Positions 1 through 14,600 of a stretch of 14,600 bases of DNA are shown one piece after another (the stretch's first letter is position 1; each line of letters starts with the position of its first letter). The position numbers were made by a program, and so were the translations under genes. The notes beneath the pieces were generated by a model. The model made no database searches. It was not told where the DNA came from and worked only from the letters and a program-made list of their open reading frames with translations. Origin of the DNA: Gemmatimonadota bacterium. GTDB lineage: Bacteria; Gemmatimonadota; Gemmatimonadetes; Gemmatimonadales; GWC2-71-9. The stretch lies in assembly GCA_029862935.1 (NCBI GenBank), contig JAOTWK010000041.1:1-14600 (forward strand), read 5' to 3'.

Positions 1-4
1 CGGG

Positions 5-544
5 TTGGGCCATCCCACTGTGGTGGCAAGCATCGCGGCGGTCGGCGGGCCGGTGCATCGCCTCATGGCGCTCTCGGACGAGGGGGAGGCCGTGCCCGCC
101 CCGGGCGTGACCGTGGAGTTGCCTGAGGACCGGGTGTCGAGCGAGTTGGCGCGCCTTCGCGAGGCGTTGGGCCCGCTCGGCTTCGGCGTCTACCAGGCGG
201 AGCAGCACTTCGGGTTCGAGCCGGACCGGCTCGCGATCGTCACCGGCACCGACCCGTACGAGTTCCTGCGGATCGTCCGCATTGATGGGATCAACTACGA
301 CCTCGAGCACGAGGCGGTGGTGGCCAAGCTTCGCGAGTGGGACAGCCGTTACGGCCTCGACTACCTCGGAGCGGGGCTGGATTGGGTGAACGCCCGGTTC
401 AAGACCCTGCCGTCGGACATGGCGCCCTTCGCCCAAGAGGTCTACGCCTTCTGCCCGGACGTGGTGGACCAGGGCACGGAAACCGTGGAACGCCTCGCGG
501 ACGAAATGCGGCGGTCCGGGACGCTCTACTGCTGGTGGGACTGA
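5..544 (+). CDS. DUF4253-like domain protein, possibly 5'-truncated
   Basis: The protein of up to 179 residues has a C-terminal half resembling the DUF4253 family: NYDLEHEAVVAKLREWD at about residues 98-113, a LPSDM segment near 135-139, the FCPDVVDQG motif at 149-157 and the terminal WWD. The family has no established biochemical role, so no function is assigned. The first available start is TTG at position 5, directly at the window edge; the frame is open to the left border, so the true start may lie outside. An in-frame ATG at 65 is the first canonical alternative. The N-terminal region of about 40 residues is Val/Pro/Glu-rich and not recognisable. A 64-nt gap follows before the serine hydrolase gene, which has its own strong ribosome site, so the two need not be functionally linked. 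Family call is from remembered motif pattern, start uncertain. Confidence 0.7.
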   Translation: MGHPTVVASIAAVGGPVHRLMALSDEGEAVPAPGVTVELPEDRVSSELARLREALGPLGFGVYQAEQHFGFEPDRLAIVTGTDPYEFLRIVRIDGINYDLEHEAVVAKLREWDSRYGLDYLGAGLDWVNARFKTLPSDMAPFAQEVYAFCPDVVDQGTETVERLADEMRRSGTLYCWWD

Positions 545-608
545 CGGCCGAGCCTAATCGCGTCGAGCCTGCGAAAGCCATGGGGCACTGGCTGCAAGGA
601 GATCGAGA

Positions 609-1979
609 GTGAGATTCCGCAGTACTTCCATATTAGGTGGCTCCATTCTGCTGGCGCTCGTGGGACGAGCCCCTGCGTCAGGCCAGCTTGCCGAGCCGTC
701 GCTCCGGTCGAAGATCGACAGCATCGTGGCGCCCTATCTGGCTGCCGCGGACTTCATGGGTGTTGTAGCCGTCAAACGCGATGGGGAAGCACCGCTCATC
801 CTGCCGTACGGTCTTGCCAGCGTCGAACTCGACGTGCCGCATCAGGCTGAGAGCGTCTTCATGATCGGCTCCGTCTCGAAGCAGTTCACCGCTGCGGCCA
901 TTCTGCTCCTGGAGCAGGAAGGCAAGCTGAGCACGCAGGACCTGGTGAGTGTCCATCTCCCGACGTTTCGCCACGGCCAGGTGATCACCATCGATCAACT
1001 GCTGACCCATACATCGGGCATCGCGGACGTCTTCTCGCTGGAGCGTTTGGGCCAGTCAGCCGGTCAGGGTGGGACGTTCGAGGAGGTGATCAGCGACCTC
1101 AGCGACGCAGATCTGACGCACGCACCGGGCTCGGCGTATGCCTACAGCAACGGTGGCTACGCTGTGCTCGCGGCAATTGTCGAATCAGCCTCGGGAATGC
1201 GCTTCGGAGCGTTCCTTCGGGAGCGGGTGTTTCTGCCGCTGAACATGGCAAGCACGTGGCACGATGGCCCCGGACCGGTTCGGAGCGGTCGCGTACCTGG
1301 GTATGACCCGTGGGGCCGAGACCAGCTGACCCGGGGCATGCCCATCGCTGCCTCCTTTAGTACCGGTTCCGGATCCCTTTGGGCTTCGGCGGTGGACCTG
1401 CTTGCCTGGACCGCGGCGCTGCATAATGGCGGCATACTGAGCGACTCCGCGTATCGGAAGATGACGCACGATTACGGCAACGGGTACGGCTACGGCGTGA
1501 GCGTGTTTCGGCGCTTTGGCCGCAACGTGGTGGGGCACGACGGACGCATCGGCGGGTTCGCCAGCGATGTTGCTCGGTACGTGAATGACCGTCTGACGGT
1601 TGTCATCTTGAGCAACGTGCAATCCGTGGCCAAAGACGAGATCCGTCGGCTGGTCGCGGCTGCCGCATTGGGAGAGCCGTATGCGGTGCCGCCACCACGG
1701 CAGTACGCCATGCGGCCGTCCGCTTCCCTCTCCGAGTTCACGGGCCGCTACTCGTTCGGACCCGGGTTCATTGTGACCGTGACCGCATCAGACGGTCGGC
1801 TGCTCGCCCGAGCGAATGAGGGGGGCAATTCGGAGCTCGTCCCGCTGAACGACAGGGACTGGTTCTCGCGCACACTCTACGCCACCGTCCGGTTTGCCCG
1901 AAATGAAGACGGCTCGGTGGACAGGCTCATCTGGGGTCAAGGGAGCGGGGCGCCCGTAGGACAGCGGGTTCGAGAATGA
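609..1979 (+). CDS. Secreted serine hydrolase, class C beta-lactamase / penicillin-binding fold
   Basis: The 456-residue protein has a Sec-type signal peptide (residues about 1-25, hydrophobic stretch ILGGSILLALVG, AxA-like site before QLAEP) and should act in the periplasm or outside. The beta-lactamase (PF00144) catalytic motifs are present in order: SxxK as SVSK at 88-91 (nucleophile S88), YxN as YSN at 179-181, and HDG at 310-312 in place of KTG, which is usual for the esterase/D-aminopeptidase-like branch. LLTHTSG at 131-137 is another family signature. Residues from about 350 onward look like the beta-barrel tail domain seen in many such proteins. The GTG start at 609 is supported by AAGGAG at 596-601, 7 nt upstream. 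Substrate cannot be told from sequence: esterase, peptidase or beta-lactamase are all possible, and nothing around it points to antibiotic resistance. The gene ends facing iorB, with a strong hairpin between them. Confidence 0.9.
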   Translation: MRFRSTSILGGSILLALVGRAPASGQLAEPSLRSKIDSIVAPYLAAADFMGVVAVKRDGEAPLILPYGLASVELDVPHQAESVFMIGSVSKQFTAAAILLLEQEGKLSTQDLVSVHLPTFRHGQVITIDQLLTHTSGIADVFSLERLGQSAGQGGTFEEVISDLSDADLTHAPGSAYAYSNGGYAVLAAIVESASGMRFGAFLRERVFLPLNMASTWHDGPGPVRSGRVPGYDPWGRDQLTRGMPIAASFSTGSGSLWASAVDLLAWTAALHNGGILSDSAYRKMTHDYGNGYGYGVSVFRRFGRNVVGHDGRIGGFASDVARYVNDRLTVVILSNVQSVAKDEIRRLVAAAALGEPYAVPPPRQYAMRPSASLSEFTGRYSFGPGFIVTVTASDGRLLARANEGGNSELVPLNDRDWFSRTLYATVRFARNEDGSVDRLIWGQGSGAPVGQRVRE

Positions 1980-2091
1980 CCGGATCGAAACACGTAGCTA
2001 CCGTCTGACGAATGATCCTTGCCGGATGCAGCCCGCGGTCGGTGCGCAGCTGCGTGCCGGGAGGAGGATCTCGGGGCCACCGATGTCAGGT

Positions 2092-2142
2092 CAGCACCTG
2101 AAGCGCGAGGCGGGCCGCGAACCGGCCCGCCTCCAGGTGCTG
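2092..2142. terminator. Strong hairpin between convergent genes, probable bidirectional terminator
   Basis: Two nested inverted repeats build one long stem. The inner stem pairs 2107-2117 with 2123-2133 (11 bp, perfect, GC-rich, 5-nt loop CGAAC). The outer stem pairs CAGCACCTG at 2092-2100 with CAGGTGCTG at 2134-2142 (9 bp, perfect). Only a 6-nt bulge (2101-2106) on the left interrupts the 20 base pairs. It sits in the 205-nt gap between the stop of the serine hydrolase (1979) and the stop of the opposing iorB-like gene (2185). No T-tract follows on either strand, so it is not a textbook intrinsic terminator; it could equally protect mRNA 3' ends. Nothing else is recognised in this gap. Confidence 0.65.
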
Positions 2143-2184
2143 CACACGTCGAAAGAACTCACTGAGACCGGCTGTCTCCGGACC

Positions 2185-4431
2185 TCACGCACGAAGCTGG
2201 AGCTGCGGGGCGAACGGTTGAACGGGCACCCGCTTGCCGGTCGCACGATACAGGGCATTGGCGAGGGCCCCGAAGATGGGCGGGAAGGGTGGCTCTCCCA
2301 GACCCGTCGGGTCGATCTCGTTCTTGACGAAGTGAACGTCGATGGCCTTGGGGGCCTCGCTGTGACGGATGGTGCGGTACGTATCGAAGTTGGTGTGCGC
2401 CGGTACGCCGTTCTCGAACGTCATCGAACCGTACATCGCATTGCCGACGCCGTCCACGATGGCGCCCTCCGCCATGTTCATGGCGGCGTCGGGGTTCACC
2501 ACGATCCCGCAATCCAGGGCGCAGCACACCCGTTGGATGACCGGCGCGCCGTTCTGGACCGTCACGTCCAGCACGTGCGCCGCATAGGAGTTGTGGCAGA
2601 AGTAGGCCGACACGCCGCGGTGCACGCCGGGCGCGGCGCCCTTGTCCCACCCGGACTTCTCACGCACCAGCTCCAACACCCCGGCAAAGCGGTCGGCGTC
2701 GTAGTCGTTGCGCTCGCCGACCGGGCGGGTTTTCGCGCGATTCAGCAGCTCGAGACGGAACGCGATGGGATCCTTCCCCATCGCTTCGGCGACCTCGTCG
2801 AGAAACGCCTGCTCCACCCCGGCGATGAAGTTGGACCTCGGCGCCCGGAATGCTCCAATGGTGATGTTGGAGTTGACCGACCATTCCTCGGCGAGGTAGT
2901 TGTCCACGGCGCCGGCCGGGAACCGGTCCGCGTGGAGCGGACTCTCCGGGATACCCCCGGCCTTCACGTGGAAGGCGATCAGGTTGTTGTCGGCATCCAA
3001 TGCCGCCCGGTACGTGGCATGGTAGGTCGGACGATAGATGCCGAACGTCATGTCGTCTTCCCGGGTGTACATCAGCTTGACCGGCGCCTTCATCCGCCGA
3101 GAGATGACTGCCGCTTCGACCAGGTAGTGACTGTAGGCTCGCCGGCCGAACCCGCCACCCATGCGCGTCAATGTGATGTCGATCTTCTCGAGCGGCAGGC
3201 CAAGGCGGGCGGACAGCGTTTGCTCGATGAACTCGGGTGCCTGAACCGGTCCCGCCAACTCAGCCTTGTCGTTCGTGACGTGCGCGAAGCAGCAGATCGG
3301 CTCCATGGGGTTGTGGGCAAGGAACGGTGCGGTGTAGGTGCGCTCGACGATCTTCGCCGCCCGTGCGAACGCCGCCTCCGGATCGCCGTCCCTGCGCACC
3401 ACCGTGCCGGGCTTGGCCGCCATCTCGGCCATGCGCGCGGTGTGGTCCGCCGTGCTCTCGCGTCCTGCAGGGATGTGGACGGTCTGCGTGCGGCCAAACC
3501 CGCCCACGACCTCGGTGCGGTCGGCGGCGGGCTCCCACTCGAACCGCAGCGCCCGCTTGGCGTTCATGACTTCCCAGGTCGTGTTGCCGACGACGGCGAC
3601 TAGTTCCGGGAACGTGTTCGTGTCGAAGAAGTTCCGTTCGTATCCGTCTTCGAACGTCTTGAACGTGAAGATGTCCTTGATGCCGGGCATGGACCGGGCG
3701 GCCGTGTCGTCCACCGCCTTCAGCTTCATGCCGAACGCCGCGGGATGCGCGATCATGGCGACGAGCGTCCCCTCCCAGCGCTCGTCCATCGTGAACAGGG
3801 GCTGCCCCGTCACGATCTCGGGCCCGTCCACGTTCTTCTGGGACGTGCCGATGATCGTGAAGTGCTTCACCTCCTTGAGTTCCACCGCTTCGGGTACCGG
3901 GATCGTCGCCGCCGCCGACGCCATGGCACCGTAGCCCGCCGACCGGCCGCTGCTTCGATGATAGAGGACGCCTTCCTTCGTGGTGACCTCGTCCACGGGC
4001 ACGCGCCACGCCTGCGCCGCCGCCTGGCGCAGCATCTGCCGGGCGGTGGCGCCTGCCGTGCGCAGCCCCTGCCACCCGCGCCGGATGCCCTGACTCCCGC
4101 CCGTGAACTGCCGGGCGTAGAGCGTCGAGTTGAAGGGCGCCTGCTCGACCACGACCTGTTTCCAGTCCACGTCCAGCTCTTCGGCCACGATCATGGGCAT
4201 GGAGGTCTTCACGTTCTGCCCGAACTCAGGATTGGGCGACAGAATCGTCACGCGGCCGTCCGCCCCGATTCGCACGTAGCCGTTCGGCTCGAACCAGGAC
4301 TCGGGCACGTCGTCCAGCGCCGCGAGGTCGAGTCCGGCGAGCCAGTTGAACCCCAGCATCATGCCGCCGCCGGCGAGGGCGGACACCTTCAGAAAGGACC
4401 GTCTGTTATGCGTCGTCTCGATGAGAGCCAC
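2185..4431 (-). CDS. iorB: Molybdopterin-binding subunit of a xanthine dehydrogenase-family hydroxylase (IorB-like)
   Basis: The 748-residue protein is the large, catalytic subunit of a molybdenum hydroxylase resembling isoquinoline 1-oxidoreductase beta subunit; these enzymes hydroxylate N-heterocycles or oxidise aldehydes with water as oxygen source. The N-terminus has a twin-arginine signal (NRRSFLK at 9-15, then a hydrophobic segment to about 28), so the folded holoenzyme is probably exported. Visible signatures are FLAHNPMEP at 370-378, cofactor-binding GGGFGRR at 425-431, and GLGEPPFPP near 710-718, in which E713 is the expected catalytic glutamate. Length fits the family. The start is GTG at 4431, supported by GAGGAA (minus strand, 4443-4438) 6 nt upstream. 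It lies 66 nt downstream of the [2Fe-2S] subunit, as in an iorAB operon. No cytochrome c subunit is present nearby, so the electron acceptor is unknown. The actual substrate cannot be deduced; the symbol marks family resemblance. Confidence 0.92.
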   Translation of the reverse strand: MALIETTHNRRSFLKVSALAGGGMMLGFNWLAGLDLAALDDVPESWFEPNGYVRIGADGRVTILSPNPEFGQNVKTSMPMIVAEELDVDWKQVVVEQAPFNSTLYARQFTGGSQGIRRGWQGLRTAGATARQMLRQAAAQAWRVPVDEVTTKEGVLYHRSSGRSAGYGAMASAAATIPVPEAVELKEVKHFTIIGTSQKNVDGPEIVTGQPLFTMDERWEGTLVAMIAHPAAFGMKLKAVDDTAARSMPGIKDIFTFKTFEDGYERNFFDTNTFPELVAVVGNTTWEVMNAKRALRFEWEPAADRTEVVGGFGRTQTVHIPAGRESTADHTARMAEMAAKPGTVVRRDGDPEAAFARAAKIVERTYTAPFLAHNPMEPICCFAHVTNDKAELAGPVQAPEFIEQTLSARLGLPLEKIDITLTRMGGGFGRRAYSHYLVEAAVISRRMKAPVKLMYTREDDMTFGIYRPTYHATYRAALDADNNLIAFHVKAGGIPESPLHADRFPAGAVDNYLAEEWSVNSNITIGAFRAPRSNFIAGVEQAFLDEVAEAMGKDPIAFRLELLNRAKTRPVGERNDYDADRFAGVLELVREKSGWDKGAAPGVHRGVSAYFCHNSYAAHVLDVTVQNGAPVIQRVCCALDCGIVVNPDAAMNMAEGAIVDGVGNAMYGSMTFENGVPAHTNFDTYRTIRHSEAPKAIDVHFVKNEIDPTGLGEPPFPPIFGALANALYRATGKRVPVQPFAPQLQLRA

Positions 4432-4497
4432 CGGAGGTTCCTCGCGGAGATGAGGTTGAACGCGTACTACCGTTGATCGGGAACGCGCGCACGGCGG

Positions 4498-4965
4498 TTA
4501 GCCCCTGCCCTTCCCGGCCGCCGCCGTCTTGATGGCGGCATGGATGCGGAGATAGGTCCCGCAGCGGCAGATGTTGCCGTCCATTCCCGCGTCGATCTCT
4601 GCGTCACTCGGAGCAGGATTCTGGGCCAGCAGGGCGGCGGCGCTCATGATCTGCCCCGCCTGGCAATAGCCGCACTGAGACACATCGTGTTCGAGCCACG
4701 CCTGCTGCACCGGATGCGTCCCGTCGGACGAAAGCCCTTCGATCGTCGTGATGCGTTGGTTGCCCACACTCGACACGGGCAGCACGCACGAGCGGACGGC
4801 GACGCCGTCCAGGTGAATCGTGCACGCACCGCATTGCGCGATACCGCAGCCGTACTTCGTTCCCACCAGCTTCAGATGATCGCGTAGGACCCACAGGATG
4901 GGTGTGCGGGGATCGACGTCGACTTCGACGTTCTTGCCGTTTACGGAAAGCGTGATTGGCGCCAT
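4498..4965 (-). CDS. iorA: [2Fe-2S] subunit of molybdenum hydroxylase (IorA-like)
   Basis: The 155-residue protein is the small electron-transfer subunit partnering the IorB-like protein. The N-terminal plant-ferredoxin domain has C40, C45, C48 and C60 for the first [2Fe-2S] cluster ([12 protein letters not shown] motif). The C-terminal helical domain has C98, C101, C133 and C135 for the second cluster ([10 protein letters not shown] and NICRCGTY motifs), which sits near the molybdopterin site in known relatives. All eight cysteines are present. I chose ATG at 4965 because the protein then begins [10 protein letters not shown] as family members do; the frame runs open further upstream to 5151 but that stretch is unlike the family, and no clear Shine-Dalgarno precedes 4965. 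It has no signal peptide, so if the enzyme is exported it would travel with the Tat signal of IorB. It is first gene of the iorAB-like operon and reads away from the AraC-type element at 5103-5141. Confidence 0.92.
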
Positions 4966-5102
4966 GGCTGCGATCGATTCAGGACGAAGGGAAGGTGAAC
5001 GAAAGCGGATCGAAATGTTCGCTTTCTTGAAGCTGCCACCCGCGAACCGGAGACGCAAGGGCGTCGCATAGTTGCATAAGGAACCTCGTGAAGGCGTCAG
5101 GA

Positions 5103-5141
5103 TCATTAGCAAAGCGCGCCATTCGTGGTCGGATTGCGCCA
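5103..5141 (-). promoter_or_regulatory. Two-part operator, probable AraC-type site (copy A)
   Basis: Read on the minus strand, two half-sites lie in direct orientation: TGGCGCAATCCG (5141-5130) and TGGCGCGCTTTG (5121-5110), starts 20 nt apart. The second continues as CTAATGA. The same arrangement occurs upstream of the araC-like gene (copy B), where the 19-nt second module matches at 17 positions and the first 12 nt at 10 positions. All four half-sites fit TGGCGCNNTYYG. Tandem direct half-sites about two helical turns apart are typical for AraC-family binding. Position between divergent iorA and xdhC allows control of both. The repeats and identities are seen directly; binding by the local regulator is inference. 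Confidence 0.7.
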
Positions 5142-5157
5142 TTCCGGGCACATGGCG

Positions 5158-5188
5158 TTGACAGCGGCCCCGGCGCGTCGCCTACCTT
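5158..5188 (+). promoter_or_regulatory. Probable promoter of xdhC-mocA
   Basis: A perfect -35 hexamer TTGACA lies at 5158-5163 and a TAnnnT-type -10 candidate TACCTT at 5183-5188, with a rather long 19-nt spacer. TGGCG at 5153-5157, an inverted copy of the operator core, abuts the -35 box. The start codon chosen for xdhC is about 110 nt downstream. Confidence 0.45.
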
Positions 5189-5295
5189 TACGCTCCCTTT
5201 GGAACGAGCGTGACCATGCTGCGATCTCCTCGCCATAGACCGCGCCGACCTGCCTCCCGGTGGGTCGTTCGGCTGCCGCTCGGGGTCGCCAGTCG

Positions 5296-6369
5296 ATGAA
5301 GGAGTGGCACGAAACCGCCGCGATCGCGCGGAGCCTCCGCGACGCACTGGGCGCCGGGGAGGCGGTGGCGCTCTGTACCGTCGTGGCGATCGACGGGTCG
5401 GCGTATCGGCGACCCGGTGCCAAGCTCCTGGTCGGACCGACGATCCCCGGGCGCGGGGGCCTGAGCGGCGGGTGCCTGGAAGCCGACGCTCGGGAGGTTG
5501 CGCTCGAGGCGCTCGACACCGGACAGGCGCGCATCCGGCGCTACGAGACCGGCGAGGACACCGTCTGGGCACTCGGGTTGGGGTGCGACGGGACAGTCGA
5601 GGTGTTCGTGCAGCCCGTGAACCCAGGCCAGACCGCCGTGTGGAAGCGCGTGGCGGAGCTGCTTCAAGGGGAAGACGCGTTCGTGCTTGCCACGGTGGTC
5701 TCGGGACCGGCGACGGGGCAGTCCGTCGTGATCCACGGCGGCCGGGTGAGCAGCGCGACCGGAGTGGAAGGGGTGGACGAGCAGCTCATCCCCCTGGCCC
5801 GGGACCGCCTGGCCGACCGGCGGTCCCGGCTCGTGGACGTGGACCAGTGCACCGTGTTTTTCGACGTGCTACTCCCACCGCCGCGGCTCGTGATCGTCGG
5901 CGCCGGGGACGATGCCATGCCGCTGGCGCAGGCGGCCGCGGCCGTCGGGTTCCGCGTCACGGTGATCGATCACCGCCCCACCCAGCTCGCGGCGGAACGA
6001 TTCCCGGAGTCGGCCCACCTCGTCCAGGCAGCGCCGGAGGACGATGCCGGCACCCTGGCCCTCGATCGGGAGTGTTTCGCCGTCGTGATGAACCACGCGT
6101 TGGTGCGGGACCGCGCGTGGATCCGCACGCTGCTCGCGTCGCCCGTGTCGTACATCGGCGTCCTGGGCCCGCGGGCGCGGATCGACAAGATCCTGCAGGA
6201 GTTCCCCCGGGACACGTCGGACCGCGTGTTTGGACCCGTCGGTCTCGACGTCGGGGCGAACGGTCCGGAGCAGATCGCCGTGAGTATTCTGGCCGAGATC
6301 CTGGCCGTTCGTGCGGGCCGCACGCCGCAACACCTGCGCGAGCGGCGAGGCCCGATCCATGGCGGCTGA
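5296..6369 (+). CDS. xdhC: XdhC/CoxI-family molybdenum cofactor maturation protein
   Basis: The 357-residue protein belongs to the XdhC/CoxI family, which binds, and helps sulfurate and insert, the molybdenum cofactor of xanthine dehydrogenase-type enzymes in the cytoplasm; it is not part of the mature enzyme. The N-terminal XdhC_CoxI domain shows GSAYRRPGAKLLV and the SGGCLE motif with its conserved cysteine. The C-terminal Rossmann-type domain shows LVIVGAGDDAMPLAQAA and VTVIDHRP, and the family hallmark GLDVGANGPEQIAVSILAEI near the end. I placed the start at ATG 5296 because MKEWHETAAIA matches the usual beginning; an in-frame GTG at 5260 is possible and neither has a strong ribosome site. 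It overlaps mocA by 11 nt, indicating translational coupling, and is divergent from iorAB, its likely client. Confidence 0.9.
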   Translation: MKEWHETAAIARSLRDALGAGEAVALCTVVAIDGSAYRRPGAKLLVGPTIPGRGGLSGGCLEADAREVALEALDTGQARIRRYETGEDTVWALGLGCDGTVEVFVQPVNPGQTAVWKRVAELLQGEDAFVLATVVSGPATGQSVVIHGGRVSSATGVEGVDEQLIPLARDRLADRRSRLVDVDQCTVFFDVLLPPPRLVIVGAGDDAMPLAQAAAAVGFRVTVIDHRPTQLAAERFPESAHLVQAAPEDDAGTLALDRECFAVVMNHALVRDRAWIRTLLASPVSYIGVLGPRARIDKILQEFPRDTSDRVFGPVGLDVGANGPEQIAVSILAEILAVRAGRTPQHLRERRGPIHGG

Positions 6370-7021
6370 ACGGGAGGGGCCCGTTGCGGGGATCGTGCTC
6401 GCGGCGGGCACGTCGTCGCGGCTGGGGCGCAACAAGCTGCTGCTGGAACTCGGCGGCGAGTCGGTGGTGCGGCACACGGTGCGCAATGCCATCGAGGGCG
6501 GCCTCACGCCGGTACTGGTGGTCCTCGGGTTCGAGGCGGGCCAAACGCGCGACGCGCTGACCGGCCTCGCGTGCGAACCGGTGGACAACCCGGAGTACGC
6601 CCTCGGCATCAACCGCTCGCTGCAGGTGGGTCTCGCCGCGGTGCCGCCGGAGGCCGTGGCCGCCGTGGTACTGCTCGCGGACATGCCGCTCGTCACCGGC
6701 GCGATGATCACGGCGGTCGTGAGGGCGTACCGTCGGTCGGCCGCACCGCTGGTGATCTCGCAGTTCGGAGAGGCACAGGCCCCGCCCACGCTGTACGATC
6801 GGTCGCTGTTCGGCGCGTTCCGGGAGCGCGAAGGCGAGGGTGCCGGCAAGCGGGTGGTCACGCGGCATCGCCAGGACGCCGTGTCGATCACGTTCCCGCC
6901 GGGTGCCTTGGTGGACCTGGACCGACCCGACGACTATCGGCGGCTGCAGGCCATGTTCGCGGACAACGTCCGTGATGCCCCCAACCCCCCAACCCGATCG
7001 GGACGCCCCCGCTCCAACTAG
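6359..7021 (+). CDS. mocA: MocA/MobA-like nucleotidyltransferase (molybdenum cofactor cytidylyltransferase)
   Basis: The 220-residue protein is a NTP-transferase of the MocA type, which joins CMP from CTP to molybdopterin to give the dinucleotide cofactor used by many xanthine dehydrogenase-family enzymes. The nucleotide-binding signature LAAGTSSRLGRNKLL is at residues 14-28, and the metal-binding LLADMP motif follows near 107-112. The start ATG at 6359 overlaps the end of xdhC by 11 nt in another frame. An upstream extension to 6311 is open but would only add non-family residues. The C-terminal tail after about residue 203 (APNPPTRSGRPRSN) is Pro/Arg-rich and probably disordered. A MobA (GMP-adding) role is less likely beside an XDH-family enzyme and XdhC. 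Confidence 0.87.
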   Translation: MAAEREGPVAGIVLAAGTSSRLGRNKLLLELGGESVVRHTVRNAIEGGLTPVLVVLGFEAGQTRDALTGLACEPVDNPEYALGINRSLQVGLAAVPPEAVAAVVLLADMPLVTGAMITAVVRAYRRSAAPLVISQFGEAQAPPTLYDRSLFGAFREREGEGAGKRVVTRHRQDAVSITFPPGALVDLDRPDDYRRLQAMFADNVRDAPNPPTRSGRPRSN

Positions 7022-7124
7022 ATGAGAACCCGAGCCGGTGCGGATGGTCGGCGGCGATGGAATCAGGCACAATCCTGCCACTCGGCTCGACGGCGGCGGT
7101 ACTCTGGTGGTGAAGCCCAGCGTG

Positions 7125-7164
7125 TGGCGCATTTCGCCAACACGTTGGCGCGGTTTGCGAATGA
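7125..7164 (+). promoter_or_regulatory. Two-part operator, probable AraC-type site (copy B)
   Basis: Two direct half-sites TGGCGCATTTCG (7125-7136) and TGGCGCGGTTTG (7146-7157) start 21 nt apart; the second continues CGAATGA to 7164. It is the counterpart of copy A at 5103-5141 and has the same orientation relative to araC as copy A has relative to iorA. A third, inverted core overlaps: CGCCAAC at 7135-7141 pairs with GTTGGCG at 7144-7150 as a near-perfect palindrome. The element ends inside the predicted -35 box, which fits autoregulation. Binding is inferred. Confidence 0.7.
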
Positions 7165-7189
7165 CAGGCCCAGCCTGGCGGCCTATGTT
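7161..7189 (+). promoter_or_regulatory. Probable promoter of araC-like gene
   Basis: ATGACA at 7161-7166 (5 of 6 to TTGACA) and TATGTT at 7184-7189 (4 of 6 to TATAAT) are separated by exactly 17 nt. The distal end of operator copy B overlaps the -35 hexamer, a geometry seen for class II activators or for repression. The start codon is 82 nt beyond the -10 box. Confidence 0.5.
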
Positions 7190-7271
7190 CTGGCATCGGG
7201 CAGACCCGGCACCCGATCCCTCGCGCCCGGGCAGGTCCGACGCGGCCCAACGATGGCCCCGGAGGAGCGCC

Positions 7272-9355
<2,084 letters not shown>

Positions 9356-9373
9356 CGTATCAAGCGCTGACCG

Positions 9374-9781
9374 TTAGACGGCCCCACCGCGCTTGGACTT
9401 TCTCGTGTGCGCCCGCAGCCAGTCTGCGAGTTCGCGCTCGGACACATGCCCCTCTGCCAACGCAAACATCACCGTGACGATCTCCTCCTCCTGCGCCGCA
9501 AAGCCCAATCCATTGAGCTCGAGAAAGATCACCATCACGATGAACGCCACCCGTTTGTTCCCGTCACGGTAAGGGTGGTTCCGACAGAGGGCGAATCCAT
9601 ACGCGGCAGCCAGGGTGGGCACGTCCGTCGTCTCGTCGTAGTGCCACTTGTGACGCGCCCTCGCGAGGGCAGCCTCAAGCGCGTCCTCGTCCCGCATACC
9701 CGCCAACCCGCCGTGCTCTCGGACTTGATCCAGATGCACCGCGTCCACGACGAGCCGCTCGACCCACCGGGGCTCCGCCAC
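9374..9781 (-). CDS. doc: Death-on-curing (Doc) family toxin, Fic fold
   Basis: The 135-residue protein matches the Doc branch of the Fic family. HLDQVREHGGLAGMRDEDAL at 16-35 is the typical N-terminal Doc pattern, and the active-site Fic motif HPYRDGNKR is at 69-77 with H69 and the anion-binding GNKR. Doc of phage P1 phosphorylates elongation factor EF-Tu and so stops translation; the target here is not shown. Start is GTG at 9781, whose G is also the last base of the antitoxin stop codon (TAGTG junction), so translation is coupled. An earlier gene order of antitoxin then toxin is standard for type II modules. The stop TAA at 9374 lies 90 nt from the aldo/keto reductase end. All catalytic residues are intact, so the toxin looks active. 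Confidence 0.9.
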   Translation of the reverse strand: MAEPRWVERLVVDAVHLDQVREHGGLAGMRDEDALEAALARARHKWHYDETTDVPTLAAAYGFALCRNHPYRDGNKRVAFIVMVIFLELNGLGFAAQEEEIVTVMFALAEGHVSERELADWLRAHTRKSKRGGAV

Positions 9782-10008
9782 TACTTCGCGAGCTGTCGCA
9801 GAGCGTTGCGGTACTTCTTGGCCGTCTTCGCAGCGATGGCCAGGGCCTTCTCGACAGTCGGGTCATACGGACTGAGCAGAATGCCTTGCTCGGTCTCGAC
9901 CGCCAGCACGCGGTCACCGGCGGCGAGGTGCAGGCGCTCAGCCATGTCCTTCGGTATGGTGGCGCCAACGGACCCACCCACCTGGCGAAGCTTGAGTTCG
10001 CGAACCAT
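9781..10008 (-). CDS. AbrB/MazE/SpoVT-type antitoxin
   Basis: The 75-residue protein has a swapped-hairpin AbrB-like DNA-binding domain over residues 1-48, with GGSVGATIPKDMAERLHLAA and GDRVLAVETEQGILLSPYD as the hallmark strands. The C-terminal helix (about 52-75, TVEKALAIAAKTAKKYRNAL) should bind and block the toxin. I chose ATG 10008 since GGAGGG (minus strand, 10018-10013) stands 4 nt upstream; an in-frame ATG at 10020 overlaps that site. The stop overlaps the toxin start by one base. P1 Doc is paired with Phd, so this is the alternative AbrB-Doc pairing, which is known from other bacterial chromosomes. A palindrome at 10046-10061 is the likely autoregulatory operator. Confidence 0.88.
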   Translation of the reverse strand: MVRELKLRQVGGSVGATIPKDMAERLHLAAGDRVLAVETEQGILLSPYDPTVEKALAIAAKTAKKYRNALRQLAK

Positions 10009-10045
10009 GTTGCCCTCCATGACGCAGCGGCCTGTTGGAGGAAAG

Positions 10046-10061
10046 TAGCACAGGAGTGCTA
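10046..10061. promoter_or_regulatory. Palindrome upstream of toxin-antitoxin module, probable operator
   Basis: TAGCAC (10046-10051) and GTGCTA (10056-10061) form a perfect 6-bp inverted repeat with a 4-nt AGGA centre. It lies 38 nt upstream of the antitoxin start, where type II modules usually bind their own antitoxin. The first TAGCAC is also within the leader of the divergent YdeI-like gene. I could not define a well-spaced -35/-10 pair. Confidence 0.5.
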
Positions 10062-10100
10062 TCAACGACAGGGACACGAAGCGGAAGCTCGCTGAGACCT

Positions 10101-10346
10101 ATGCCTGGTCAGTCACGACTCCGCCGCCCCCGGAATCCGATGCCGGTGCTCGTGCGTGACGCCCTCGTCCGCCGCGACCTCATGGACGCGTTCCGGAAAC
10201 GGCCCCCGTATCAGCAAAACGACTACTTGGGGTGGATCGCGCGGGCCAAGCGGCCTGCAACGCGTGAGAAGCGACTGGCACAGATGCTCGATGAACTCGC
10301 AAGCGGCGATCGTTACATGAACATGGTGTACCGTGCCAAGCGGTGA
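10101..10346 (+). CDS. Small YdeI/OmpD-associated-like protein
   Basis: The 81-residue product carries the signature block RPPYQQNDYLGWIARAKR at 34-51, then KRLAQMLDELASGDRYM, which I recognise from the C-terminal domain of YdeI-type proteins (OmpD-associated family, linked in some bacteria to resistance against cationic peptides); many bacteria encode this block alone as a 65-80 residue protein. No signal peptide or membrane segment is present. ATG 10101 gives MPGQSRLRRPRNPMP, and the basic RNPMP lead-in is usual for relatives; ATG 10140 would give 68 residues and cannot be excluded, as neither has a good ribosome site. It is divergent from the toxin-antitoxin pair. Molecular role is unknown. 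Confidence 0.75.
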   Translation: MPGQSRLRRPRNPMPVLVRDALVRRDLMDAFRKRPPYQQNDYLGWIARAKRPATREKRLAQMLDELASGDRYMNMVYRAKR

Positions 10347-10371
10347 CGGCACCGGGTCCTCATCGCGACGC

Positions 10372-10881
10372 ATGCGCGGGACGCGGCGCTCCTCCTCGCT
10401 CCCCCCTTGTTCGATCCGAGGGGCGACGGCCCTCCCGCTTCTTCTTCTCGGTGCACTGGCCTGCCCGTCACCAGCCGAACCCGCCTCTGGTGTCACCTTG
10501 CTCGTCACCAACGGGACTTGTCAGATGGGCGAGTGCGAGCCGCTGCTGATTCTCGGATTCCCGAGCAACCAGCCGCAGACGCCCGGGGGCTTCTGGTCGC
10601 TGGACCTCGGTCTCGTCAGTGCGTCACCGGCGTGTCTGATGCTGCCAGCCTCGGCAACCTTTCGCGTGATTGGCGTGTCCGACGACGGAACCAAGACCGA
10701 TACGACGACCTACACGTGGACGACTGCTGATCCGCTCTCGTTGGCAGGCCAGCCAGCGACATCGTCACGCCTTCTTACTGCGCCCACCACAGTGGCCTTC
10801 GTGCCGGCCAACGCGGGCGGATGGAGGATCACGCTACCCGGTGAGTCCCCACCGGCTCGTAGCTCTGCCTGTGCACCCTGA
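10372..10881 (+). CDS. Hypothetical exported protein, probable lipoprotein
   Basis: The 169-residue product has a basic N-terminus (RGTRR), a hydrophobic stretch ATALPLLLLGALA at 18-30 and then C31, a loose lipobox (ALAC). The mature part is Thr/Ser/Pro-rich with three spaced cysteines after C31 in its first half (in NGTCQMGEC and SPACLML), repeated beta-strand-like segments and the ending WRITLPG, suggesting a small beta-sandwich outside the cytoplasm. I do not recognise a family and assign no function. ATG 10372 starts just ahead of the signal; the frame is open back to GTG 10333, overlapping the preceding gene, but no ribosome site favours either. Codon composition resembles neighbours. 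Confidence 0.6.
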   Translation: MRGTRRSSSLPPCSIRGATALPLLLLGALACPSPAEPASGVTLLVTNGTCQMGECEPLLILGFPSNQPQTPGGFWSLDLGLVSASPACLMLPASATFRVIGVSDDGTKTDTTTYTWTTADPLSLAGQPATSSRLLTAPTTVAFVPANAGGWRITLPGESPPARSSACAP

Positions 10882-10918
10882 ATTCGCCGGCCCTCGCGCG
10901 ATGCGAGATCGCCACAAC

Positions 10919-10928
10919 AAAGGAGGTG
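10919..10928 (+). promoter_or_regulatory. Perfect extended Shine-Dalgarno sequence before a CTG start
   Basis: AAAGGAGGTG is fully complementary to the usual 3' end of bacterial 16S rRNA (CACCTCCTTT) over 10 nt. The GGAGG core ends at 10926, six bases before CTG at 10933, which is optimal spacing. It decides the start of the glyoxalase-fold gene, whose frame offers no ATG, GTG or TTG between the previous in-frame stop (10879-10881) and this point. Confidence 0.8.
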
Positions 10929-10932
10929 TGAC

Positions 10933-11298
10933 CTGCTCAAGGCTGCAATTCCCGTCCTGCATATCAGTAGCTCAGTCGCGACCGAGGCGTTCTACTGCAA
11001 CCAACTCGGCTTCCAGCGGCGATTCGCGTACCGTCCCGCGACGACACCGGACCCGTGCTACATGGGCTTGACGCGGGACGGGGTGTGGCTGCACCTGTCG
11101 TCACATTCGGGCGACGGGGTCCCGGGCAGCGCGGTCTACGTGGTGGTGGATGATGTGGATGCCCTGCATGCGGAGTTGGTCGCGAAGGGTGTTCCGATCG
11201 ACACCGGACCGGTAGATCAGACGTGGGGCAACCGCGAGATGTACGTCAAGGACGCTGACCGTAACAGCATTCGTTTCATCCAAGAGCGTAGCGGTTGA
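10933..11298 (+). CDS. Glyoxalase/bleomycin-resistance (VOC) family protein, CTG start
   Basis: The 121-residue product is a complete VOC-fold protein of the bleomycin-resistance type: LKAAIPVLHISSSVATEAFY opens the first beta-alpha-beta module, QLGFQRRFAYRP follows, then YMGLTRDGVWLHLSS at 43-57, VDDVDALHAELVAKGVPID at 72-90, and the family ending WGNREMYVKDADRNSIRF at 98-115. Such proteins bind or modify small molecules; the substrate here is unknown, and true drug resistance is not implied. A start at ATG 11062 would remove the first 43 residues and half of the fold. Relatives begin with M-L-K-A; here the M position is CTG at 10933, behind a perfect Shine-Dalgarno. The next gene starts 4 nt after the stop, so the two are probably co-translated. 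Confidence 0.82.
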   Translation: MLKAAIPVLHISSSVATEAFYCNQLGFQRRFAYRPATTPDPCYMGLTRDGVWLHLSSHSGDGVPGSAVYVVVDDVDALHAELVAKGVPIDTGPVDQTWGNREMYVKDADRNSIRFIQERSG

Positions 11299-11302
11299 CC
11301 AC

Positions 11303-12100
11303 ATGCCGCACCTGACCAGACCCATCGTGGTGGGCGCAGTGGCGGCCCTCGTGGTGGGGTGTGCGACCGGACATCGGCGCCTGTCGGGAGCCTCGGCGGA
11401 CACCGTGCGGGTCCTCGCCTACAACATCCATCACGGCGAGGGCATGGACGAGGTGCTAGACCTCCAGCGCCTGGCGGCGCTGATCCGAGACCTCGACCCC
11501 GACCTCGTGGCGCTCCAGGAGGTCGACAGTGTGACCACGAGAACCGCGGCCGTCGATCAGGCGGAAGTGCTGGGACGTCACACGTCCCTCGAACACGTGT
11601 TTGGCGCGTTCATGCCGTATCAGGGTGGAGCATACGGCATGGCGCTACTGTCTCGATGGCCCATTGCCGAGTCGTCGAACCTCCGGCTGCCCGACGGAGC
11701 GGAGCCGCGGACGGCCCTGAGTGCTACGGTCACGTCACCCACAACCGGGCGGCGGCTTCGGTTTGTGGGAATTCACTTCTACCGGACGGATGAGGAGCGG
11801 CTCGCCCAGGCCACCAGCCTCGAGGCCCAGCTCGGCCGGGGAGATCTTCCCACCATTTTGGCAGGCGACTTCAATTCGCTGCCGGGCTCAACGGTGATGA
11901 CTCACCTGGCGAGGTCGTGGCGCATCGTCGCCAAGGGCGGCGACCGATTCACGTTCCCTTCGTACGCGCCGGAACGCGAGATCGACTTCGTCCTGCTTCG
12001 ACCGGCCGATCGGTTCGAGGTGTTGAGCCATCGCGTGATTGACGAACCGGTCGCCTCGGATCACCGACCCGTCATGGTCGACCTTGTGATACGGCACTGA
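11303..12100 (+). CDS. Endonuclease/exonuclease/phosphatase-family lipoprotein
   Basis: The 265-residue protein has a lipoprotein signal with lipobox VVGC (C20), so it is anchored outside the inner membrane. The metal-dependent hydrolase motifs of the DNase I-like superfamily are all there: N41 in YNIHHGEG, E73 in LQEVD, H158 in GIHFYR, D189 and N191 in GDFNS, D228 in EIDFV and the terminal D253-H254 in SDHRPV. This family covers nucleases, phosphatases and sphingomyelinase-like phosphodiesterases; the secreted location fits scavenging of phosphodiesters, but substrate is open. ATG 11303 begins 4 nt after the glyoxalase-fold gene, with no ribosome site of its own, which suggests coupling. Confidence 0.9.
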   Translation: MPHLTRPIVVGAVAALVVGCATGHRRLSGASADTVRVLAYNIHHGEGMDEVLDLQRLAALIRDLDPDLVALQEVDSVTTRTAAVDQAEVLGRHTSLEHVFGAFMPYQGGAYGMALLSRWPIAESSNLRLPDGAEPRTALSATVTSPTTGRRLRFVGIHFYRTDEERLAQATSLEAQLGRGDLPTILAGDFNSLPGSTVMTHLARSWRIVAKGGDRFTFPSYAPEREIDFVLLRPADRFEVLSHRVIDEPVASDHRPVMVDLVIRH

Positions 12101-12156
12101 GGGTGGATCGTTGCGTGTCGAGCCGTTGAACGCTGGGCGCGGACCGGCTTCGAGCC

Positions 12157-12654
12157 ATGGGTGAGTTCGTGTATCGGCCGATGCGGACCGGCGAGGAGGA
12201 AGCCGTCGCGGACCTCGCCGCGCGGGTCTTCAACCAAGCCGTCGCCCCGGGCTATGCCGACGAGGGCGTTCAGGAATTTCTCCGATACGCCTCCGCCGCT
12301 CGGGTGCGCGAGCGACTGCAGGCCGACCATTTCGTGCTGGTGGCGGAACGGCGCGGGGAGCTCGTCGGGTTCATCGAGATGCGCCACTCCGAGCATGTGG
12401 CGATGTTGTTCGTGACGCAGCCGGGGCGCGGTGTGGGGAGAGAGTTGCTCCGGCGGGCGATTGCCCGTTGCCGGCAGGCCGTTCCCGACCTGACCCGCGT
12501 CACAGTCCACGCTGCCCCAGGGGCGGTCGAGATCTACGCGCGGCTCGGATTCAGGGCGCTGGAACCGGAGCGGATCGAGAGCGGCATCCGCTTCGTGACG
12601 ATGGCGCTCGAGTTGGATCACGCAGTGGATGGGTCTGGGAGCGGTACCGGCTGA
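12157..12654 (+). CDS. GNAT-family N-acetyltransferase
   Basis: The 165-residue cytoplasmic protein fits the GNAT fold. The acetyl-CoA pyrophosphate-binding motif A is QPGRGVGRELL at 88-98, preceded by the beta-strand HVAMLFV, and the C-terminal motif B region is AVEIYARLGFRAL at 123-135. The N-terminal FVYRPMRTGEEEAVADLAARVF is a common GNAT opening. Acceptor substrate cannot be predicted. Start ATG 12157 lacks a strong ribosome site; the last residues (DGSGSGTG) look like a flexible tail. It lies 56 nt after the phosphatase-family gene on the same strand and faces the desaturase gene across an 87-nt gap without an obvious hairpin. Confidence 0.88.
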   Translation: MGEFVYRPMRTGEEEAVADLAARVFNQAVAPGYADEGVQEFLRYASAARVRERLQADHFVLVAERRGELVGFIEMRHSEHVAMLFVTQPGRGVGRELLRRAIARCRQAVPDLTRVTVHAAPGAVEIYARLGFRALEPERIESGIRFVTMALELDHAVDGSGSGTG

Positions 12655-12741
12655 CCGGGCACAGCCGCCACCGCAGATTGCACGTTCAAGAACACGTTCC
12701 GATTCGAGCCCAGCACGCCATCGGCTTCGGGGCGCGCATTC

Positions 12742-13800
12742 TCAGACGCAGACGTGTTCGCGGATGTGCGCGGGGACGAGTCGGCGTTCCGATACCACCC
12801 CGTGCACCACGGCCTTGAAGAAGTCGGCCAGGAACGTCAGGTACGACGTATAGACCGACGACCCCGCCATCCGATAGTTCTCCCGCAGTATCCGGTGCGC
12901 TCTGGGAAGGTTGTACCACGGAATCCCGGGGTACAGGTGGTGCTCCAGGTGGTAGTTGATGTTGCAGATGAGGAACGACAGCACGGGTGTCGTCGTCACG
13001 GTGCGGGTATCGGTCAACTCGTTCCCCGAGGTCGTCATGCCGTGCTCGGCGATCCCACGGACGTTCGCCACCTGACCGGCGACGATCAGCGGGAGGAGCC
13101 AGCCCTCCACCATCCATGACGAGGGAAGGAGCGCCCACCCGAGCGCCACGATGCCGATCATCGCGAGCCACTCGAGCAGTACCAGCATACGATCGCCGTT
13201 CTTCTTCGCGTTGATCACGGCGTTGATCGGCACCAGGACCAGATAGAGATACACGGCGAGGAAGAAGACGAAGACATAGAGCCATCGCAGCCAGAACGAG
13301 CTGGTGGTGATGTTCTCGATATTGTCCGGATCCCCTGCGTCCCGCACGTACTTGTGATGCAGCGGGTGCATGATCCGGTACCCGGACGCCGAAAACACGA
13401 CGGGGGTACCGACCAGAAACCCGATCCAGCGGTCGATCTTCGGATTGCGGGTGAAGAGGTTGTGCGACGCCTCGTGCCCCAGCACGGACAACGTGCTGAG
13501 CGAGAGACCTGCGATGAGATAGCCCACGATGCTGACGGCCAGGGAGCCGGAGCTGATGGACAGCCACGCTGCCCCGAGCCAGATCGCGAAGTGGAGCGGA
13601 ACCACCCAGTTCCATCGCTTGTCGAGGCGGTGCAGTGCCTTCAGGGCGTTGCGCTGCTCCGGTGAGAAGTCCTGCCGCGTCATCGGGGAAGCGACGTTCC
13701 CCTCAGGGCAGAAATACAGTTCGTCCTTCGCTGTTCGCCTAACCGTGTTGGCTTCGGCGACGGCCTTTCCATCCGTCGCACCAACCATCCCCTGTGACAT
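12742..13800 (-). CDS. Membrane fatty acid desaturase
   Basis: The 352-residue integral membrane protein contains the three histidine boxes of the di-iron desaturase/hydroxylase family (PF00487): HEASH at 109-113, HPLHH at 145-149 and HLEHH at 284-288, the last within NYHLEHHLYPGIPW, plus an extra H253 in RGIAEHG. Hydrophobic segments at about 66-82, 88-108, 170-195 and 208-243 suggest four or more membrane spans. Such enzymes place a double bond or hydroxyl in acyl chains or carotenoids using O2 and an electron donor, which is not encoded nearby. A polar 45-residue leader precedes the family part; ATG 13800 is used, M5 (13788) is an alternative, and neither has a clear ribosome site. The exact substrate is not evident. 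Confidence 0.9.
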   Translation of the reverse strand: MSQGMVGATDGKAVAEANTVRRTAKDELYFCPEGNVASPMTRQDFSPEQRNALKALHRLDKRWNWVVPLHFAIWLGAAWLSISSGSLAVSIVGYLIAGLSLSTLSVLGHEASHNLFTRNPKIDRWIGFLVGTPVVFSASGYRIMHPLHHKYVRDAGDPDNIENITTSSFWLRWLYVFVFFLAVYLYLVLVPINAVINAKKNGDRMLVLLEWLAMIGIVALGWALLPSSWMVEGWLLPLIVAGQVANVRGIAEHGMTTSGNELTDTRTVTTTPVLSFLICNINYHLEHHLYPGIPWYNLPRAHRILRENYRMAGSSVYTSYLTFLADFFKAVVHGVVSERRLVPAHIREHVCV

Positions 13801-14008
13801 GTGCGTGTATCGCTTCCGTTACCGTGGTCAACCAATTCCGCTTTTCGAACTCTGCTGACAAGAACACCATTGGAAACCCAAAAGTTTCGCCGCGGACGGC
13901 GGGAAAATAGTGAGGTTCTGCCGGAGAGTCGAGTCCCCTCGCTCGTCTTGCCGGGGGAGGCCACGGCGTCCATCTTGGGGCCTGCGGACCGTCTTTCTGG
14001 AGCGGAGC

Positions 14009-14383
14009 TTGTCAGCGATTGCGGAGATCACGGGGCACAGCGCGAGCTACCGCCCGTTCCGGGACCGCCGAGCACCGCACGTGATTGTGGCGCTCCTGCT
14101 CGCGGCCGCGTTGGGCTGCACCGGACCACACACCCGGGACGAGGAGCGTACCGTGCCCTCCAGAACGATCGAGGAAGTGCTCGCCGCTCATGCCGACTCG
14201 CTGATGGCGTTGCCCGGCGTGATCGGCACGGCGCTCGGGCAATGCGACGGCGACCTTTGCATCCGTGTGTTCGTGACGGACTCGAGCGAGACCGTGCGCC
14301 GTCGCATTCCCGATCAACTCGACGGGTATCCCGTTCGCGTCGAGGTCACGGGACCGTTCCGTCCTCGACGGGACTCGGCGTAA
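14009..14383 (+). CDS. Small hypothetical lipoprotein
   Basis: The product of about 124 residues has a basic segment (RPFRDRR at 15-21), a hydrophobic core VIVALLLAAALG and C37 as probable lipidated cysteine. The mature part contains TIEEVLAAHADSLMALPGV followed by TALGQCDGDLCIRVFV, with C79 and C84 five residues apart, and DGYPVRVEVTG, a compact alpha-beta pattern resembling a small conserved domain of unknown role found in other proteins. I give no function. The frame is open upstream to GTG 13910, but that part is Arg/Ser-rich and non-protein-like; TTG 14009 has GGAG at 13999-14002, 6 nt upstream, and I prefer it with moderate trust. GTG 14081 would give almost no signal n-region. It is divergent from the desaturase. 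Confidence 0.65.
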   Translation: MSAIAEITGHSASYRPFRDRRAPHVIVALLLAAALGCTGPHTRDEERTVPSRTIEEVLAAHADSLMALPGVIGTALGQCDGDLCIRVFVTDSSETVRRRIPDQLDGYPVRVEVTGPFRPRRDSA

Positions 14384-14428
14384 GCGAATCGCGTTACGCT
14401 CCGCCTACACATCCAGGCTTTCTTCTCA

Positions 14429-14600
14429 ATGCAGCATTCAGCGCTGAAGACGCGGTTGCTCTGCATGCTGCTCGTGGGCATCGGAGCGTGCGGCCGCACG
14501 TCGCCACCGCCGACCTACGAGCTCGCGTTCGTGTCCGACCGCGATGGGAACGGCCTGGACATCTTCCCGACCACGATCGACACCGCCTCTTTCCGCAACA
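14429..14600 (+). CDS. Beginning of a PD40/TolB-like beta-propeller lipoprotein (cut by window edge)
   Basis: Only the first 57 residues are present. A lipoprotein signal ends in the lipobox IGAC (C21), and the mature protein starts with ELAFVSDRDGNGLDIF at 31-46, a typical first blade motif of WD40-like PD40 repeats found in TolB and many exported proteins. ATG 14429 gives a good basic-hydrophobic leader; ATG 14465 in the same frame would leave too short a signal. It follows the small lipoprotein by 45 nt on the same strand. Confidence 0.7.
   Translation, partial: MQHSALKTRLLCMLLVGIGACGRTSPPPTYELAFVSDRDGNGLDIFPTTIDTASFRN

Follow-up and report, generated by a model that had tools for sequence, protein, structure and literature searches.

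The stretch analysed here (the window: 14,600 nt, positions 1 to 14,600 of the forward strand of contig JAOTWK010000041.1, assembly GCA_029862935.1, from a Gemmatimonadota bacterium) contains an araC gene encoding an AraC/XylS-family regulator (7272-8279), preceded by a box of two direct half-sites that is, in all likelihood, the operator of this regulator. The regulator would bind the box head to tail, activate transcription from a class II position, autoregulate araC together with the aldo/keto reductase (AKR) gene that follows it and probably drive, from a second copy of the box, the iorAB genes of a molybdenum hydroxylase. Protein binding, activation, ligand and iorAB control are proposed from the box, its period, its -10 register, its neighbours and its recurrence, all of which can be read directly in the DNA.

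In the proposed mechanism, two regulator subunits would bind two half-sites of the approximate form TGGCGYNNTYYGC, lying 21 nt apart, which is two helical turns; the downstream half-site would abut the -35 element of a sigma-70 promoter, the -10 of which would be located 16–18 nt beyond the 42-nt tandem. Given this class II geometry, the bound regulator is proposed to activate by contacting RNA polymerase. The second copy, with half-sites one base closer and a poor -10, probably drives iorAB, whose expression may as a result be weaker or depend more on the activator. The elements concerned are the following:

7125..7164, plus strand: putative operator box at araC; upstream half 7125-7145, downstream half 7146-7164; 21-nt period
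7161..7189, plus strand: predicted araC sigma-70 promoter ATGACA-17-TATGTT; the -35 touches the downstream half-site and the -10 is at 7184-7189
5103..5141, minus strand: putative operator copy 5' of iorA; half-sites 5141-5130 and 5121-5110; 20-nt period
5078..5083, minus strand: TTCCTT, a weak -10-like hexamer located where the -10 of iorA is expected

Anatomy of the tandem box

Both elements are found as a first-pass annotation of the window had described them, with TGGCGCNNTYYG half-sites at 5130-5141 and 5110-5121 (minus strand) and at 7125-7136 and 7146-7157 (plus strand). The start-to-start distance is 20 nt in the iorA copy and 21 nt in the araC copy, and both show the arrangement of AraC-type tandem operators, in which direct half-sites are separated by about two turns of the helix. 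The gene-proximal 19-nt modules (termed distal in that annotation) are, on recomputation, identical at 17 of 19 positions, and the common orientation claimed for the copies is confirmed, each pointing toward its own gene with the start codon 138 nt (iorA) or 108 nt (araC) downstream. The exact tandem TGGCGCNNTYYG-N8/9-TGGCGCNNTYYG occurs twice in the window and never in 200 dinucleotide shuffles of it; the lone half-site is not rare, with 11 occurrences at no more than one mismatch versus 8.7 expected.

A sequence-only box model was trained on 31 boxes, which include the araC copy of the window and not the iorA copy. The 30.7 bits (E 4e-9) reached by the araC copy are partly by construction, because it is one of the training boxes; at the iorA copy the model, in its fixed register, recognizes the proximal half alone (14.9 bits, E 4e-4). 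When half-site pairs are scored with free spacing, 58 of 63 lie at 21 nt, two at 22 nt and one each at 14, 42 and 43 nt, against a single pair in total in the reversed sequence; this count is circular in part and not wholly independent, because the half-site matrix derives from 21-nt-period boxes adjacent to araC genes. One of the 22-nt pairs is an overlap with a real box (L109) and the other lies 5' of an alcohol dehydrogenase (ADH) gene (L133). The araC copy has this canonical period and the iorA copy does not.

The promoter is part of the same architecture. Downstream of the 58 boxes scoring above 26 bits, the hexamer TANNNT starts at column 58, 59 or 60 in 50 cases, compared with a mean of 0.33 per column elsewhere; counted back from a -10 at this fixed distance over a 17-nt spacer, the -35 falls where the box ends, which is the class II position. 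A half-site next to or over the -35 and a fixed -10 register, which characterize class II promoters, are found at araC and in these 50 boxes, and are absent from the iorA copy. The -10 counts, as the trained-model and target counts given below, are partly circular because the model was trained on boxes beside araC.

The half-sites could also be read as sigma-54 (-24/-12) promoters, as TGGCGCGTTTTGCA recalls TGGCAC-N5-TTGC and the most conserved letters include the GG and GC elements. This reading can practically be discarded, since the element is a tandem of 21-nt period and has a sigma-70-like -10 behind it in fixed register. It was rejected on the GG-to-GC spacing, which in the sigma-54 consensus is two bases longer than in the half-site.

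Recurrence of the box beside araC genes

One test of the operator uses no training and is therefore free of the circularity just mentioned. The motif of the first-pass annotation alone (20 positions, spacing 20 or 21) was scored in 49 loci of araC homologues (41 genome, 8 plasmid), over a span reaching 2.5 kb upstream and 1.5 kb downstream of the gene. At least 18 of the 20 positions match in 27 of the 49 loci, a level reached by 6 of 1960 shuffles and by 1 of 67 segments taken from distant parts of these loci; at a threshold of at least 17, the figures are 39 of 49, 63 of 1960 and 2 of 67, and the period is 21 nt in all 39 of these loci. The conservation at orthologous araC loci, which had been suggested as a check of the motif, is thus borne out. 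Among the 10 missing loci, L137 and an Aeromonas locus carry the box outside the scanned span, and L010, L108, L168 and L213 carry a box that departs from the letters of the motif. Excluded from the set were L002, L004 (identical to L172), L009, L160 and L162, where araC lies at a contig edge or close to it, L135 and L136, where it is partial, the second araC match of L003, the loci of genomes G165, G173, G338, G245 and G037, which mostly resemble retained loci, and the plasmid loci L220-L226.

The genome-wide frequency check proposed for the motif was made in relatives. The trained model was applied to 396 genomes from the phylum to which G001, an Acidobacteria metagenome-assembled genome, belongs; many of the training boxes come from these genomes, which makes the survey partly circular. 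A box at E <= 0.01 is present in 35 of them, namely in 26 of the 31 that are AraC-positive (match at 1e-70) and in 9 of the 365 that are AraC-negative. A strict pattern is found in 21 of the 396 genomes (7 AraC-positive, two of which are its source), compared with 8 for the pattern reversed. In the 45 genomes positive for the box or for AraC, 46 places at E <= 1e-3 occur in 39 genomes, one to three in each; 39 of these places share a stretch with an araC match and 7 do not.

Beyond the window, boxes are found in Acidobacteriota, Verrucomicrobiota, Pseudomonadota and Bacillota. In Verrucomicrobiota it is present in the fetched region of all five araC loci (from 5 of 240 genomes), the box of L010 being one of the training boxes. 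A contig scan gave 10 loci, of which nine belong to Acidobacteriota records and the tenth to Opitutaceae. In a scan of viral contigs 45 stretches matched a pattern, none of them encoding a relative. Relatives are encoded in 49 plasmid records, and among the 15 of these araC loci that were read, 11 have a box above 20 bits, including those of Rhizobium, Sinorhizobium, Paraburkholderia, Cupriavidus and Paenibacillus; the reversed sequences reach maxima of -7.8 to 11.6 bits. L214 has its best box at a distance of 4.5 kb from araC. In plasmid pS44-1 of Aeromonas salmonicida no box is present in the araC flank; here the araC relative is the last gene after a three-gene resistance-nodulation-division (RND) efflux operon and, since the regulator ends that operon, the region upstream of it was examined. 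A near-consensus box of 49.2 bits was found there (L219 1766-1805; NZ_CP022176.1, a conjugative plasmid), starting 201 nt before the first RND gene. In the Rhizobium plasmid loci L212 and L218, up to four box-like copies, near 2300, 3070, 4006 and 6096, precede successive genes around araC; they score 9.7-24.1 bits and the weaker ones are uncertain.

Several observations weigh against the assignment of the box to this regulator. Five AraC-positive genomes (G037, G160, G245, G349 and G354) have no box at E <= 0.01, and four genomes without an AraC match have strong boxes, followed by genes for an AKR (G065), a zinc ADH (G083 and G274) and an iron ADH (G203); in G065 a PF12625 protein is present elsewhere in the genome. 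The remaining 4 of the 15 plasmid araC loci reach 8.7-19.6 bits, below 20. The counts at araC loci are not independent events because the loci are related, and in the survey of 396 genomes scoring was confined to a few top candidates per genome (five for AraC), with stricter filters for the box, so that positives and negatives may both have been missed. The comparison set consists of Acidobacteriota, Verrucomicrobiota and plasmid records and contains none from Gemmatimonadota, the phylum of the window.

Predicted target genes and the place of the molybdenum hydroxylase

The genes around the two copies in the window are the following:

7272..8279, plus strand: araC regulator, PF12625 (Arabinose_bd) and PF12833 (HTH_18)
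8300..9283, plus strand: aldo/keto reductase, PF00248
4498..4965, minus strand: iorA-type 2Fe-2S subunit of a molybdenum hydroxylase, PF01799 and PF00111
2185..4431, minus strand: iorB-type molybdopterin subunit, PF02738 and PF20256; twin-arginine-like N-terminus (by eye)
5296..6369, plus strand: xdhC-type maturation factor, PF13478 and PF02625
6359..7021, plus strand: mocA-type cytidylyltransferase, PF12804

The araC product scores 124.1 bits for PF12625 and 66 bits for HTH_18, passing the curated cut-offs that place it in the PF12625 subgroup of the AraC/XylS family. The gene for the AKR, a family also found near araC in many other loci, starts after a 20-nt gap and the two genes form a probable operon; the placement of the box and this operon position favor the earlier suggestion that the regulator controls itself and the AKR. 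By Pfam, the two ior products are the 2Fe-2S small subunit and the MoCoBD large subunit of an IorAB-type molybdenum hydroxylase, and an NCBIfam search with the IorAB of the window reached no equivalog cut-off.

In other loci the box is mainly located before genes of a different kind. The first gene after 66 boxes above 21 bits, assigned by tblastn, encodes a zinc ADH in 26 cases, araC in 8, a short-chain dehydrogenase/reductase (SDR) in 7, an AKR in 4 and a major facilitator superfamily (MFS) protein, an iron ADH and an iorB remnant in one each; 18 have no tblastn assignment. The labels given to the query genes are supported by Pfam (ADH_N/ADH_zinc_N, adh_short, MFS_1, Fe-ADH), which also recognizes, in the group of 18, an aldehyde dehydrogenase in L165, SDRs in L143, L168 and L215, an AKR in L217 and, in L110, a protein with pyrroloquinoline quinone (PQQ)-repeat and malectin domains; by eye, L217 has in addition an NTF2-like protein and L166 a cupin, and several weak boxes may be due to chance. 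To judge from gene positions, the core targets are alcohol, aldehyde and ketone oxidoreductases and araC itself, not molybdenum hydroxylases. As the box stands mainly before NAD(P)H-linked oxidoreductases of these compounds, the inducer is likely to be a carbonyl or alcohol compound, presumably a small one; this ligand is a guess from the target enzymes.

These targets bear on the proposal of the first-pass annotation that one sensor controls iorAB, xdhC-mocA, araC and the AKR as a single molybdenum hydroxylase regulon, for which the gene order and the common element in the window speak. The trained-model scan of the window found no box directed toward xdhC, and the claimed control of xdhC-mocA finds no support; 5' of xdhC, TTGACA (5158-5163), TACCTT 19 nt further on and a lone half-site-like string can be seen by eye, and the promoter search found no consensus promoter there. 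No xdhC or mocA match occurs in 24 loci and no xdhC match in a set of 50 loci, and the main targets elsewhere are ADHs, SDRs and AKRs. A single regulon of this composition is hence unlikely, and the reading of the system as a molybdenum hydroxylase regulon is right only in part; the araC site is best read as the operator of the neighbouring regulator.

Of the 45 genomes, 41 contain matches to the window iorA at E <= 1e-25, 172 in all, and the best iorA-homologue locus in each of 30 genomes lacks the box. These loci score at best 13.9 and on average 3.1 bits, against 15.2 and 4.3 for the reversed sequence, so that none of the 30, which do not include Gemmatimonadota orthologues, exceeds the best reversed score; the expected conservation of the element at orthologous iorA genes is thus absent from these homologues. 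The exceptions are the window copy itself and three genomes in which iorAB adjoins araC (G003, G157 and G250). In G003 the order, in one direction, is box, MFS gene, araC, c-type-cytochrome-like gene (by eye), iorA and iorB, with identities of 58% for iorA (one in-frame TGA in the match) and 31% for iorB. In G157 and G250 (L135 675-714 and L138 9657-9696), a box of 26-29 bits lies between araC and iorA. The chance expectation of iorAB beside araC is about 0.33 (10-kb span, 5.2-Mb genomes) versus three cases seen, corresponding to a Poisson P of 0.005 for three or more; P is 0.044 for two or more, the relevant value if G157 and G250 represent a single event. In G388 (L107 5436-6005) the box points at the remnant of an iorB-type gene, divergent from araC, about 190 residues long and matching only the end of MoCoBD_2. 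In a Rhizobium etli plasmid (L220 1-2153), 2Fe-2S and molybdopterin-binding genes are found near a broken araC relative; no box above 5 bits stands by the iorA-like gene and boxes are present elsewhere in the locus.

It is possible, if doubtful, that the araC box is an operator and that the copy at iorA has no function, being either in decay or a product of chance, with iorAB controlled otherwise. The features that agree with this also count against the iorAB part of the operator assignment: the 20-nt period of the iorA copy is represented by none of the 63 scored pairs, the promoter search found no consensus sigma-70 promoter in the iorA intergenic region, only the proximal half is recognized in the fixed-register model, the iorA homologues elsewhere are without a box and the box between araC and iorA in G157 and G250 is directed away from iorA and has no -10. 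On the other side, the exact tandem is absent from all 200 shuffles, the iorA copy reaches 29.8 bits with variable spacing compared with 15.2 for the best of the 30 reversed loci, it is correctly oriented at a similar distance from its gene and iorAB recurs beside araC in three genomes; moreover, the 22-nt variant 5' of an ADH gene in G306 suggests that a one-base change of spacing may be tolerated. At iorA the copy is genuine but atypical, with a 20-nt period and no clear -10. A molybdenum hydroxylase joins the regulon now and then without belonging to its core, the window copy plausibly being one such case, and the molybdenum enzyme in the window looks like a local addition. A local link of iorAB to the regulator is favored by the three genomes in which iorAB adjoins araC and opposed by the 30 homologues without a box.

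Related regulators and wider meaning

The 120 AraC relatives among the matches listed are 70-99% identical to the window regulator. The regulator scores 139 bits over residues 13-330 for the GliR equivalog NF050186 (cut-off 570 bits) and 191.2 bits for the QhpR equivalog NF049968 (cut-off 250 bits); because both scores are under the cut-offs, it is neither QhpR nor GliR, which represent the nearest NCBIfam families. The best match by sequence among solved structures is VirS (PDB 8rcx; E 3.6e-20, residues 15-328), a distant relative whose mymA operon includes ADH and SDR genes.

In E. coli, araI1-I2 consists of tandem half-sites with a 21-bp period and an overlap with the -35, as in the window box; its half-site sequence, ligand and regulon differ from those of the window system. 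In the same species, the YqhC system is induced by aldehydes and dkgA encodes an aldo/keto reductase. E. coli AraC is said in general terms to activate when bound to two sites next to the promoter (PMC8151288), and the AraC-type YqhC binds the yqhD-dkgA promoter, both genes being overexpressed in regulator mutants and no clear induction by glutaraldehyde being observed in the parent strain (PMC8262776). YqhC is a functional parallel, as its promoter target includes an aldehyde reductase gene, although its N-terminal domain is called AraC-N type and is not PF12625 (PMC8262776).

GliR (PA3027) of Pseudomonas aeruginosa recognizes, by chromatin immunoprecipitation sequencing, motif A YYGGCGHTDTYSGMC, a copy of which encompasses the -35 of PA3026; its sites CTGGCGCTATTCGCC (peak 20) and GTGGCGTTATTCGCC (peak 2) have TGGCG and TTCGCC in common with the window araC half-site TGGCGCATTTCGCC (PMC8151288). 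In contrast to the 21-nt tandem of the window, motif A is a single 15-mer and the GliR targets are glycerolipid genes (PMC8151288). In the half-site matrix, the two sites score 9.0 and 8.0 of 23.2 bits, values reached by 2-3 of 10,000 random 14-mers at 66% guanine plus cytosine. Motif A and the window half-site, compared at the level of letters, are similar and not identical; the operator proposed here predicts, for relatives such as GliR, that each motif published as a single one is half of a 21-nt tandem.

The Pseudomonas regulators CdhR, GbdR, SouR and ArgR carry a glutamine amidotransferase (GATase)-type N-terminus, not PF12625. The CdhR operator has two direct GGTCGC half-sites with a 15-bp spacer, giving the same 21-nt period as the window box, and the GbdR, SouR and ArgR sites are called very similar; the half-site is GGTCGC instead of TGGCGC, and CdhR is described as class I (PMC5806209). 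This published 6+15 nt architecture with a similar half-site would suit a site read by another AraC-family protein of the ArgR-GbdR-CdhR type, the neighbouring araC being incidental. Such a reader is highly improbable, as the box co-occurs with the AraC clade in the surveyed genomes (the 26/31 versus 9/365 above) and the two stay close together across several phyla. The published VqsM motif is different (PMC4176358). The accessible parts of the literature searched, which covers few subscription journals, contain no description of this operator as a tandem, and no paper was found there on an AraC regulator together with iorAB, on QhpR, on an AraC regulon in Acidobacteria or Gemmatimonadetes or on AraC and direct repeats at ADH or AKR genes.

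The operator of the window regulator would therefore be of an ordinary kind, with an unusually deep conservation that extends to the promoter geometry, in a regulator clade that is apparently uncharacterised. Somewhat more speculatively, and as a tentative view, TGGCGYNNTYYGC-N8-TGGCGYNNTYYGC might be the ancestral operator code of one subfamily within the PF12625 AraC regulators, with targets swapped between lineages in a system that senses carbonyls or electrophiles: the operator would have remained nearly unchanged from Gemmatimonadota to Bacillota, with many regulators only ~37-50% identical to that of the window, and the operator and promoter geometry would have stayed fixed around exchanged targets (ADH, SDR, AKR, aldehyde dehydrogenase, RND efflux, molybdenum aldehyde oxidase). 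The box could serve as a predictive operator for this widespread clade, so that the target genes of uncultured Acidobacteriota, Gemmatimonadota and other lineages can be read from their sequence, and it supplies an induction hypothesis of aldehyde or alcohol type.

The rest of the window contains, on the minus strand, a gene for a Fic/Doc-type protein that immediately follows the gene of a MazE-like antitoxin (9374-9781 and 9784-10077), a probable toxin-antitoxin pair, and a fatty acid desaturase gene (12742-13800). The plus strand encodes a beta-lactamase-family serine hydrolase (PF00144) with a DUF3471 domain (609-1979), an endonuclease/exonuclease/phosphatase-family protein (11303-12100) and a GNAT acetyltransferase (12157-12654).

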